Below the pieces are notes generated by a model. The model was not told where the DNA came from. It worked only from the letters and a program-made list of their open reading frames with translations, and made no database searches. A program made the position numbers and the translations under genes. A stretch of 34,037 nucleotides of DNA from Pseudanabaena sp. 'Roaring Creek' (GTDB taxonomy: Bacteria; Cyanobacteriota; Cyanobacteriia; Pseudanabaenales; Pseudanabaenaceae), in the NCBI RefSeq assembly GCF_001402795.1, contig NZ_LIRE01000739.1, positions 1-34,037 on the forward strand, in the 5' to 3' direction. This document shows positions 12,142-23,119 of this stretch, in pieces. Positions within the stretch are counted from its first letter, which is position 1, and every line of letters begins with the position of its first letter.

Positions 12142-12864
12142 ATGCTCTTACATTTATCCACATGGCAAGAAGTCGAAGCTTACCTAAAGCGATCGCCAGC
12201 GGTAATTATTCCCATCGGCTCCACCGAGCAGCATGGACCCACAGGCTTAATCGGGACTGATTTTATTTGCGCCGAAGCGATCGCCCGTGCGGTTGGGGAA
12301 AAAGCCGATGCTTTGGTTACCTCGACGCTGACTCTGGGCATGGCGGAACATCATACGGGCTTTGCAGGTACGATTAGCCTCAAGCCATCTACCCTTAACT
12401 TAGTAATTCATGATGTGGTGCGATCGCTCGCCAAACATGGATTTAAACGTTTTTTCTTTCTCAATGGTCATGGTGGCAATATTGCCGTACTGAAAAATGC
12501 CTTTACCGAGATTGCTAACGAACTGCCCGATACAAGCTTTCGGCTCGGTAACTGGTGGGCAAGTAACGAAATTTATAAGCTGGTGAAAGAGTTATATGGC
12601 AATCAAGAAGGCTACCATGCCACACCTAGCGAAATTGCGGTAACCATGTATCTTTACCCTGACTCGATTAAGAACGCACCGCTCAGCCAATCGGTCAATA
12701 AGGATAGCCGTATCTATAGCCCTGAAGAATTTCGTCAACGCTATCCCGATGGACGGATGGGTTCAAATCCAGCCCTTGCCACAGTCGAGCATGGGAAACA
12801 ACTTTTTGAACTAGCCGTCAAAGAGCTAGTCAGCCAGTACAACGATTTTCTTGCCGAGGCTTAA
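12142..12864 (+). CDS. Creatininase-family amidohydrolase
   Basis: The 240-residue protein shows the family's metal-site motifs: PIGSTEQHGPTG with GTDF, then FLNGHGGN, and GYHATPSE in place of the usual HAGETETS segment. The family includes creatinine amidohydrolase, MftE-type peptidases and riboflavin or F420 pathway hydrolases; cyanobacterial members are uncharacterised. The length (240) is normal. It is followed by a 340-bp gap full of palindromic repeat elements. Confidence 0.87.
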   Translation: MLLHLSTWQEVEAYLKRSPAVIIPIGSTEQHGPTGLIGTDFICAEAIARAVGEKADALVTSTLTLGMAEHHTGFAGTISLKPSTLNLVIHDVVRSLAKHGFKRFFFLNGHGGNIAVLKNAFTEIANELPDTSFRLGNWWASNEIYKLVKELYGNQEGYHATPSEIAVTMYLYPDSIKNAPLSQSVNKDSRIYSPEEFRQRYPDGRMGSNPALATVEHGKQLFELAVKELVSQYNDFLAEA

Positions 12865-12869
12865 TATGT

Positions 12870-12958
12870 AAGTAGCTAAGCATATCTAGAAGAGCGTACC
12901 GCCTGCGTAGCGGGCGGTACGCTCTCTGGTTTTGGTTTTTAATTATGCCCAGCTACTT
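12870..12958. mobile_element. Repeat element, family D copy 1
   Basis: Outer inverted repeats AAGTAGCTAAGCATA (12870-12884) and TATGCCCAGCTACTT (12944-12958) enclose a palindrome at 12891-12925. That palindrome has 13-bp arms (AGAGCGTACCGCC) and centre GCGTAGC. The right arm continues into AATTAAAAACC-like sequence shared with the copy at 21194-21301. It lies 6 bp after the creatininase stop. Confidence 0.7.
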
Positions 12959-12966
12959 ATATGGAC

Positions 12967-13167
12967 TAATACCAATTCACGAAAGTGTGGCAACACTTTT
13001 GTGAATTAAAAACCAAACCTAGTAGTCTGCCACGAGAACTTTGACTAGTTGGGGGTTATTGAAACGAGCGAAGCTCGTTTCAATAACCCCGCAAATTTCC
13101 TTTGGTAGACTACTAGTAAGGGTTTGAAAAGCTAAAAATGGCGTAGCCATTTTTAGCTTTGGTATAA
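12967..13167. mobile_element. Composite repeat element, family A copy 1 (interrupted by B)
   Basis: The ends are TAATACCAA (left) and TTGGTATAA (right). Inside are a left hairpin at 12974-13007 (arms AATTCAC.AAAGTGT) and a right palindrome at 13128-13160 with 15-bp arms and centre GCGTAGC. A second copy at 21016-21187 has the same order of parts. Between the two hairpins a separate element (13022-13113) has been inserted. Confidence 0.75.
13022..13113. mobile_element. Repeat element B inserted at a TA in element A
   Basis: Terminal inverted repeats GTAGTCTGCCA and TGGTAGACTAC bound 92 bp, flanked on both sides by TA (13020-13021 and 13114-13115). Inside is a perfect 18-bp-arm palindrome at 13052-13090 (GGGGTTATTGAAACGAGC arms, centre GCGAAGC). 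Removing the element and one TA restores the sequence found in the uninterrupted A copy near 21090. Confidence 0.75.
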
Positions 13168-18779: not shown

Positions 18780-19893
18780 ATCGCTCCTCAAATTTTTAAA
18801 CTAAGCGTTTTCAAGAGTGCTTCTCCAAGACTAGAAGTCTGAAACAAAGAAGACCTTATAACTTTAAAATTTAAACGTAGTAGCTTAACAGCTAAAAATC
18901 ATAATCTTTAAGTTTTATAAATTCAGTCTATAAATGCGTCAAATGCTCCAAGGTTGATTTGTATAATACAGGGTTAACCTTTTAATCTCTTGCGTCTGGA
19001 GTTACATATTATTACAAATTAACTAAAAAAGTCAAAGGGTGGATATTACTATCTATCTCAAGATTTAGTTGGGTTTTGACTTGAATTTTGGCGCGAATTT
19101 CGACTTGAATTTTGACTAAGTATTTACACCTATTAAACTGCCCTTTTAAATTGCTCTTTTAAATTCTCAATTTGCTCACCCAATTGTTATTAATACAACT
19201 ACAAAGCCTTACTGCTAGAAGCCAATCCTAAACTCTAGACATCCTCAAAAAAATCAATCTATAATAAAATTACGTATGTAAGCCCTAGTTTGGATTTAGA
19301 AAGTTTCCAAGAATACTATTCTTTAAAGGGATTATTTTTAGAGGGATTATTTTAGAGGGATTATTTGGATGTCAATTTGGCAGAAAAATGAGAAAGGAAA
19401 AACTGAATCTCGGATCGCTAAACATGAATTGTGATGGTTAAGTCACATCCAAAATCAGAACAGTCTTAGCTGATAGAGATGAATGCCATGCTTAATTACA
19501 CTGACTGCTAGAGTGCAAAAGACGAATATTAGAAACCTGAGGTTCCCTATAATTACTTCTTTAGAATTAACTATAAACTTTTGCTTACGAGTGAACTTCT
19601 CAACACCAACACCAAAGTAATTATTCCCTGTGTGGGCTTTTTCTTATCTTTAATTTTGTTTAAGAAAGTTAATTAAGTCGATCCTTACGAGTAATAAATT
19701 CTATGGGTGAAGACTAGGATTAATTGTCTTAAAAACTGCATTTGCGCGATCGCATAGACTAATAATCTTTATTGTGAGAGGAAAGTCGCAAAATGCAATC
19801 ACTCATTTGGATGAAGTCAAACATTAAAACAAACGATCCCCATCTAGTTACCTTGATACTATGAAAGCAATCTATCGAGATTTGATTAAGAAT
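18780..19893. other. 1.1-kb gene-poor region upstream of the sigma factor gene
   Basis: No convincing gene. The content is AT-rich with short direct repeats: TTGACTTGAATTTT-like blocks at 19074-19120, TTTTAAATT blocks at 19144-19168, and three units of AGAGGGATTATTTT at 19325-19366. CTTACGAGT occurs twice (near 19585 and 19685). A 23-codon frame at 19793-19864 is preceded by GAGAGGAAAG and might encode a peptide. The sigma promoter and possibly an unrecognised small RNA could lie here. Confidence 0.5.
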
Positions 19894-20048
19894 AATTAAC
19901 GTTAATTCTGGATAATTTGAAACGGACTTTGAGAAAGGTTTTGCGTCGCAAACCCTTTCTCAAAGTCCAAAAGTAAAAGCCTTGCTTCGCAAGGCTTTTA
20001 CTTTTGGACTTTTGAAATTTGCTATCCTAACCCGAACTGACGTTAATT
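19894..20048. mobile_element. Repeat element, family E with two linked hairpins
   Basis: Outer inverted repeats AATTAACGTTAATTC and GAACTGACGTTAATT bound 155 bp. Inside are a 19924-19968 palindrome (15-bp arms plus inner stem, centre GC-GTC-GC) and a perfect 24-bp-arm palindrome at 19962-20012 (centre GC-TTC-GC). The two share AAAGTCC (19962-19968), so only one can form fully at a time. It lies upstream of the DUF928 gene, not at a gene end. Confidence 0.75.
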
Positions 20049-21015: not shown

Positions 21016-21187
21016 TGATACCAATTCACGCTAATTCACGAAAGTATGACAACCCTTTTGTGAATTAAATTTGTGAATTAAAAACTAAACCTACTAAGGA
21101 TTTTCAAGTAAGGATTTTCAAGTAAGGATTTTCAAGTAAGGATTTTCAAGTTCAGAAATGGCGTAGCCATTTCTGAACTTGGCATTA
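21016..21187. mobile_element. Composite repeat element, family A copy 2
   Basis: The ends are TGATACCAA and TTGGCATTA. The left hairpin is the same as at 12974-13007 but both arms carry an extra unit (AATTCACGCT on the left, AAATTTGTGAATT on the right). The right palindrome is 21147-21181 (16-bp arms, centre GCGTAGC). Between them is a 14-bp tandem repeat instead of the inserted element B. It starts 2 bp after the DUF928 stop. Confidence 0.75.
21095..21150. repeat. 14-bp tandem repeat, four copies
   Basis: TAAGGATTTTCAAG is repeated four times without change (56 bp) inside repeat element A copy 2. The unit corresponds to a single-copy segment (TAAGGGTTTGAAAAG) in copy 1, so the expansion happened in this copy only. 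Confidence 0.95.
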
Positions 21188-21193
21188 GATGTG

Positions 21194-21301
21194 AAGTAGC
21201 TAGGCGCAATTAAATATAAAACCCAGAATCAAAACCTGTAGCGCACGCTCAGCCTGCGCTACAGGTTTCGAGGTTTTATATTTAATTGCATCTAGCTACT
21301 T
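21194..21301. mobile_element. Repeat element, family D copy 2, carrying F core
   Basis: Long outer arms begin AAGTAGCTAGGCGCAATT at 21194 and end with AATTGCATCTAGCTACTT at 21301; they pair over nearly 30 bp through TAAATATAAAACC. Inside is a hairpin at 21232-21268 (14-bp arms AAACCTGTAGCGCA, centre GC-TCA-GC). Positions 21215-21243 match family F at 16746-16774. It separates DUF928 from the kinase fusion gene. Confidence 0.75.
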
Positions 21302-22906: not shown

Positions 22907-23017
22907 AAACAAACTCATGATTTTCTTTCATCTCGGTTCATCAATTAATCCGTTAATATATAAACACTAACCTTTCATTAAAAAAAATATTGCAGCAATT
23001 ATCGATCAAGCGAACTA

Positions 23018-23068
23018 CAAGGAAGTTTTTGAAAGCCTTGCTTAGCAAGGCTTTCAAAAACTTCCTTG
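23018..23068. repeat. Perfect 24-bp-arm palindrome, centre GC-TTA-GC
   Basis: The arms start CAAGGAAGTTTTTGAAAGCC and run inward to TTGC; the centre is TTA. It lies between convergent genes (kinase fusion and small membrane protein), 52 bp from the stop of the latter. It is likely to fold in RNA from either strand. Confidence 0.85.
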
Positions 23069-23119
23069 GTTTGGGTTTGAGCGCAAAGCGCTGTATGTCC
23101 GATCGCAGTTTATATTTAT

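Follow-up and report, generated by a model that had tools for sequence, protein, structure and literature searches.

Positions 12967–13167 of the 34,037-nucleotide contig NZ_LIRE01000739.1 of Pseudanabaena sp. 'Roaring Creek', which was analysed at full length and is referred to here as the window, almost certainly hold two different non-coding MITEs nested by transposition: element A, inserted first at a TAA, and element B, inserted later in a CTAG of the linker of A, with the ends of two IS630 branches. Both insertions are marked by target duplications that are still in place, and the ends of both elements are shared with elements that bear a transposase. The nesting event itself is ordinary. 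It provides relative dates for the two insertions, and it identifies the abundant palindromic repeat A of Pseudanabaena as a transposed element that is also a landing site for others.

Layout of the nest

The outer element A lies downstream of a creatininase-family gene (12142–12864), starts with TACCAATT, ends with TTGGTA and has TAA on each side. It is composed of two hairpins and a linker of the form AAAACCAAACCCAGTAAGG, in which B is placed. With B and one TA subtracted, A is 101 bp long, the commonest length of complete copies (25/30). The inner element B is a single long hairpin consisting of inverted ends and an 18-bp perfect core palindrome, and folding of the whole element as single-stranded DNA gives a z of about -9 to -11. 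The right end of B reads GTAGTCTACCA on the reverse strand and is identical to the left end at 10/11 positions. The features of the nest and of a second A copy in the window are:

12967–12969 (no strand): left TAA target duplication of A, a TNA as in the two-ended A copies with identical flanks (43/57)
12970–13164 (+ strand): element A, a two-hairpin MITE interrupted by B; the orthologue in P. biceps PCC 7429 is uninterrupted
13020–13021 (no strand): left TA of the B target duplication, inside CTAG 13019–13022
13022–13113 (+ strand): element B, a 92-bp IS630-type MITE with ends GTAGTCTGCCA / TGGTAGACTAC, delimited by its repeat copies and borders
13052–13090 (no strand): central palindrome of B with 18-bp arms and the 3-nt loop GAA, from the palindrome scan and folding z
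13114–13115 (no strand): right TA of the B target duplication, inside CTAG 13113–13116
13128–13160 (no strand): second hairpin of A with 15-bp perfect arms and a paired change relative to the PCC 7429 orthologue
13165–13167 (no strand): right TAA target duplication of A, from the flank comparison
21019–21184 (+ strand): second, diverged A copy without B, with linker CCTACTAAGG, flanks TGA/TTA and a 14-bp tandem repeat

The first-pass annotation, made from the sequence alone, had described an element at 12967–13167 interrupted by a 92-bp insert with inverted ends and TA borders. This description is borne out, and its range corresponds to A plus the TAA duplication; the annotation had missed that A is a MITE too, one whose duplication differs in being 3 bp long. 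In the second hairpin of A, comparison with the PCC 7429 orthologue (L113) displays a G-C to A-T change on both sides together with loop changes, as if the stem were kept.

Element B and its candidate mover

A search of 58 genomes, including P. biceps PCC 7429 (G014) and P. galeata CCNP1313 (G022), identified ten B loci in three of them: three in the own genome, six in P. galeata and one in PCC 7429. The copy at own contig C187 exhibits 96% identity over 98 bases. Fragments of B are present in G019, G001 and G002, and a weak match in G046 is probably coding sequence. The plasmid search for B returned a single record, from P. galeata, and neither the phage search (A with B) nor the viral-contig search (B core) provided a match. 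The strong evidence for B is its repetition at three loci of its own genome. Within the window, GTAGTCTRCCA with at most one mismatch has two matches, both exact, against 0.47 expected; as two were reached in 7/100 shuffles, the motif by itself is weak there.

The ten loci provide 19 readable borders, one end of the copy at C676 being lost at a contig end. TA is kept at 18/19 of these borders, the exception being the damaged right end of the P. galeata copy at G022:2760062, so the B copies lacking TA that the first-pass annotation had named as counter-evidence did not appear. CTAG is found at 17/19 borders, with TTAG at one (PCC 7429 C304) and TA gone at one, the damaged end just described. 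The intact B sites are all CTAG, so that a 2-bp TA duplication and a 4-bp CTAG duplication are indistinguishable from the sites themselves. It is conceivable, though unlikely, that the enzyme of B duplicates the four bases CTAG, in which case B would start at TAGTCTGCCA; this agrees with the CTAG borders and with restored sites that hold CTAG once, and both readings give the same letters. Against it, IS630 reportedly prefers TA in CTAG, to judge from the title of Tenzen and Ohtsubo 1991, and two other IS630 families in P. galeata have TA on both sides in 7/7 and 11/11 copies (18/18). ISY100 of Synechocystis, which belongs to the IS630 family, is likewise described as excised by double-strand cuts and inserted at TA, which it duplicates (PMC2170065). 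B is read here as duplicating TA.

An inverted repeat (score at least 13, at most 70 bp from the restored site) accompanies 6/8 two-border B copies against 8/117 window CTAG sites (Fisher p 1.6e-5). A hairpin preference of B was nevertheless dropped as a candidate, with p 0.04 against intergenic CTAG sites only (8/26) and a score cut-off picked after the scores were seen. Several variants among the B copies were also observed. The core palindrome carries T-A or C-G on both arms, depending on the species, and the 3-base core loop can face either way in copies that are alike in other respects (L002, L047, L053–L058), reading GAA/TTC in the own genome and TTT/AAA in P. galeata, as if the core flips. 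Two P. galeata copies (L058 at 3620944 and L059 at 2760062) have one flank in common and the other different, the second lacking the right TA; this pattern points either to copies that rearranged with each other or to a repetitive flank.

Within the genus, CTAGTAGTCTNCCA is matched 11 times in six genomes, and every match falls on a B copy, a B fragment or an IS630 element. The own genome accounts for six of them (two from the window B, two from the C187 B, one from the C676 B and one from the C378 relic); G001 and G019 each have a single match, in a B fragment, and G008, G014 and G016 each have a single match next to an IS630-type transposase. Four more matches occur outside the genus, in other families, and the reversed control has three matches in the 58 genomes. 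PF13358 (DDE_3) has four matches in the own genome, one of which (C378:2504–2626) falls within a 0.44-kb relic with the ends CTAG-TAGTCCGCCAAG and CTAG-TAGTCTACCAAG. The IS630-type transposase with GTAGTCTRCCA ends that had been suggested as a check is present as this relic and, in better copies, in the three related genomes G008, G014 and G016. In the G016 element, a helix-turn-helix frame (HTH_32, hand translation) precedes a DDE_3 frame; the scores of the latter are 144.2 bits against NF033545 transpos_IS630 (cut-off 100) and 100.6 bits against DDE_3. Relatives in G040, G024 and G046 have C-TA-G at both ends.

Because of the TA/CTAG borders and the ends it has in common with IS630 transposase elements, B is assigned as an IS630-type MITE, a new representative of a type of element already known. 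The same assignment and the TA duplication, proposed in the first-pass annotation, are supported further by the empty site in PCC 7429 given below. An IS630-family transposase with HTH and DDE_3 domains would cut B at its GTAGTCTRCCA ends and paste it into the TA of CTAG. Past their first 11 bases, the ends of B match known IS ends at 19–21/27 positions, and with this moderate match the direct parent of B was not found. A handedness, with each end of B matching its counterpart in the IS, was dropped because either end of the IS is matched about equally well (19–21/27). Within the own genome, a draft of 770 contigs in which repeats are interrupted at contig ends, PF13358 revealed no intact matching transposase for B, only the decayed 0.44-kb relic. 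In G022, no B-type transposase was matched at E <= 0.001 despite six B loci, so these copies are without a known helper there now. A further IS630 family of the own genome is broken at contig ends (L091/L065 on C176, L067/L109 on C381), with a transposase end ...ACTTGACTGCCTACTAG or ...ACTTAACTGCCTACTAG, again with CTAG.

B resembles IS630/Tc1-mariner IS and MITEs such as ISY100 in its TA duplication, in inverted repeats common to a DDE_3, IS630-model transposase and in its cyanobacterial host (PMC2170065), and it differs from ISY100, beside which it is set by description, in having no gene, a length of 92 bp, a structure that is mostly one hairpin and intact sites that are always CTAG. REP/GTAG palindromes are described as short hairpins with a GTAG tag at one end and an IS200/IS605-type RAYT partner (PMC3733652); such an identity for B was ruled out by the inverted GTAG at both ends, the target duplication and the DDE_3 partner.

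Element A and the TNA duplication

The 24-base head of A has 226 matches in the own genome at up to two mismatches, and its reversed control has 0. The A sample contains 84 distinct heads out of 90 loci, with right ends assigned by regular expressions, and is composed of 52 standard copies, seven single-hairpin copies of about 42 bp, four long (nested) copies and 21 without a recognised right end. The last two classes were excluded from flank scoring and 2/59 were short of flank, leaving 57 copies. Identical flanking trinucleotides are present in 43/57, all of the form TNA (TTA 24, TAA 16, TCA 2, TGA 1), against a mean of 21.4 and a maximum of 33 in 2000 random re-pairings of the flanks. A four-base flank match was found in 0 copies. 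Three insertions have exact empty sites with one trinucleotide copy left, namely L252 (paralogues GGTTTTAAGTTTACTTATGC), L254 and L031 (A within A); self-matches and looser joins were set aside from this list. A does not follow the canonical 2-bp TA duplication, and its 3-bp TNA duplication ties it to an IS630-like transposase branch other than the canonical TA group. The 42-bp single-hairpin form (7/84 heads; L033, L035, L241, L256, L270, L280) mostly has TWA flanks of its own.

An IS630-type element of 1143 bp in P. galeata (L322) has TTA on both sides and a left end that agrees with the head of A at 21/26 positions. Its transposase scores 129.8 bits to NF033545 transpos_IS630 and 61 bits to DDE_3. 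Relatives of L322 were collected on plasmids (8 records by blastn, 33 by tblastn), from which 25 loci were taken, giving 26 with L322. TACC ends were assigned in 19/26 and none were obtained for 7/26; end assignment favoured TACC starts, so the 19 are selected for TACC, and the flanks were no part of the choice. Identical TNA flanks are present in 17/19 (TTA 8, TAA 4, TGA 3, TCA 2) and the flanks are unequal in L327 and L338. The TACC set includes ISAcma28 and an element of Trichormus variabilis ATCC 29413, the left end of which starts with TACCAATTCACGAAA, the same 15 bases as A. ISAcma28, an IS630-like element of Acaryochloris marina annotated in NZ_AP026077.1, is similar to A in its TACCAATT ends and TTA/TTA flanks and its transposase is related to that of the P. 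galeata A-type element, but unlike A it carries the transposase gene and is 1134 bp long.

TNA or TWA duplication is a feature of the IS5/IS1031 and PIF/Harbinger groups. An enzyme of this kind could have moved A, with the likeness to IS630 ends arising by chance, and the own genome does contain an IS5-type element (PF13340; L285, C73) with TTA on both sides. The ends of that element (GAGCGTGTTTGAGAAG) are unlike those of A, and 17 of the 19 IS630-type elements with TACC ends have the TNA duplication, one sharing the first 15 bases of A, which makes an IS5-type mover very improbable. The L285 element itself is apparently intact. An IS630-type mover of A is favoured: with TNA in 17/19 A-like elements against TA in 18/18 copies of the other families, two IS630 branches appear to have built the nest, one of them off the TA rule. 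We consider it likely that a cyanobacterial IS630 branch with TACCAATT ends went from a TA spacing of its cuts (2 bp) to a TNA spacing (3 bp) and gave rise to the abundant Pseudanabaena repeat A, so that the nest brings together, in one genome, two branches of IS630 that follow different rules for their targets. A transposase of this branch would recognise the ends of A and duplicate TNA, and both A and B would be cut and pasted by helper transposases acting in trans. A tree was built from 38 transposase fragments, with the short row L087 dropped. In it the B-type clade has support 1.0 and is separate from the A-type group; the A-type node has support 0.396, and because its tips had all been collected through their similarity to a single query, this grouping carries no independent weight. 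PF13358 detected no A-type transposase in the own draft genome of 770 contigs. As no intact helper was found there, A and B may now be immobile in the own genome. Since related transposases of one genus differ in duplicating TA or TNA, what sets the strand-transfer stagger in IS630/Tc1-mariner can be tested directly.

Zator/TP36 elements may have a 3-bp duplication. Their transposases are described as related to IS630 (PMC7386202), and they resemble the A branch, by description alone, in having IS630-related transposases and possibly a 3-bp duplication. MITEs are known in cyanobacteria (PMC10969869). One of them, Nezha, has ISNpu3-like elements as its proposed mover (PMC3049150); A is likened to it, by description alone, as a cyanobacterial non-coding inverted-repeat element with a proposed IS partner. 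A literature search on Pseudanabaena MITEs found no paper, and none naming A or B was found on nested or TA-type cyanobacterial MITEs, as judged mostly from listings. Among the papers listed in a literature search on the point, none was seen to describe a TNA or 3-bp duplication in IS630. Such a duplication may already be recorded in the IS database, since at least one member of the A branch bears an IS name.

Order of insertion and neighbouring repeats

The creatininase-family gene was scanned over the genome collection, giving 80 loci, and the downstream region was compared in eight Pseudanabaena-group loci (L113–L118, L120, L150). At the orthologous locus of P. biceps PCC 7429 (L113), A is present without B, with 96% identity over 736 bp downstream; A is absent at that position in the remaining seven. 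The PCC 7429 orthologue contains the exact empty site AAACCTAGTAAGG, and deletion of B plus one TA from the window produces the same sequence (join AAACCAAACCTAGTAAGG in PCC 7429, AAACCAAACCTAG...[B]...CTAGTAAGG in the window). The restoration of the PCC 7429 site dates the insertion of B after the split from that lineage, and A without B in PCC 7429 along with seven loci without A gives the order A, lineage split, B. In this order, A inserted at a TAA downstream of the creatininase-family gene and duplicated it, the lineage then split from PCC 7429, and B entered the CTAG in the linker of A and duplicated its TA.

The first-pass annotation had taken the copy at 21016–21187 as a natural empty site for B. 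It is indeed a relative of A without B (21019–21184), but its linker, CCTACTAAGG, is one base off the restored CCTAGTAAGG (wider reading CTACTAAGG), with CTAC in place of CTAG. This difference and the unequal flanks (TGA/TTA) identify it as a diverged paralogue and not a true empty site. Part of its linker (21095–21150) has grown into a 14-bp tandem repeat, TAAGGATTTTCAAG, present four times. Empty sites are also available for other B copies: the host palindrome of the C187 copy occurs without B in PCC 7429 C133 (TGTCCTAGTACATTTGG) and also in the own genome, where contig C194 ends, and for P. galeata 4710952 the opposite palindrome arm serves as the empty site.

It is highly improbable that B was ancestral within A and was precisely excised from the other copies, a loss that would also yield CCTAGTAAGG. 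B stands alone at unrelated sites and is inside only 1/84 A heads (CTAG is present in the linker region of eight others), leaving 83/84 without it, and the usual 101-bp length of A (25/30 copies) excludes B; A copies that always contain B, also named beforehand as counter-evidence, were thus not what was found. An assembly artefact is scarcely credible either, for although the genome is a draft of 770 contigs and some contigs end in A/B repeats, the nest is in the interior of a 34-kb contig, the sequence on either side of A agrees with PCC 7429 and the duplications are exact. Insertion of B into an existing A is the preferred reading of the nest.

Other repeats are present in the window. A repeat of about 155 bp (19893–20048) has dozens of PCC 7429 matches at roughly 83–91% identity. 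Large palindromic repeats at 12866–12962 and 21195–21300, both with AGTAGCTA-like ends, and at 22986–23099 are also matched many times in PCC 7429, and palindromes of this kind are hosts for A and B elsewhere.
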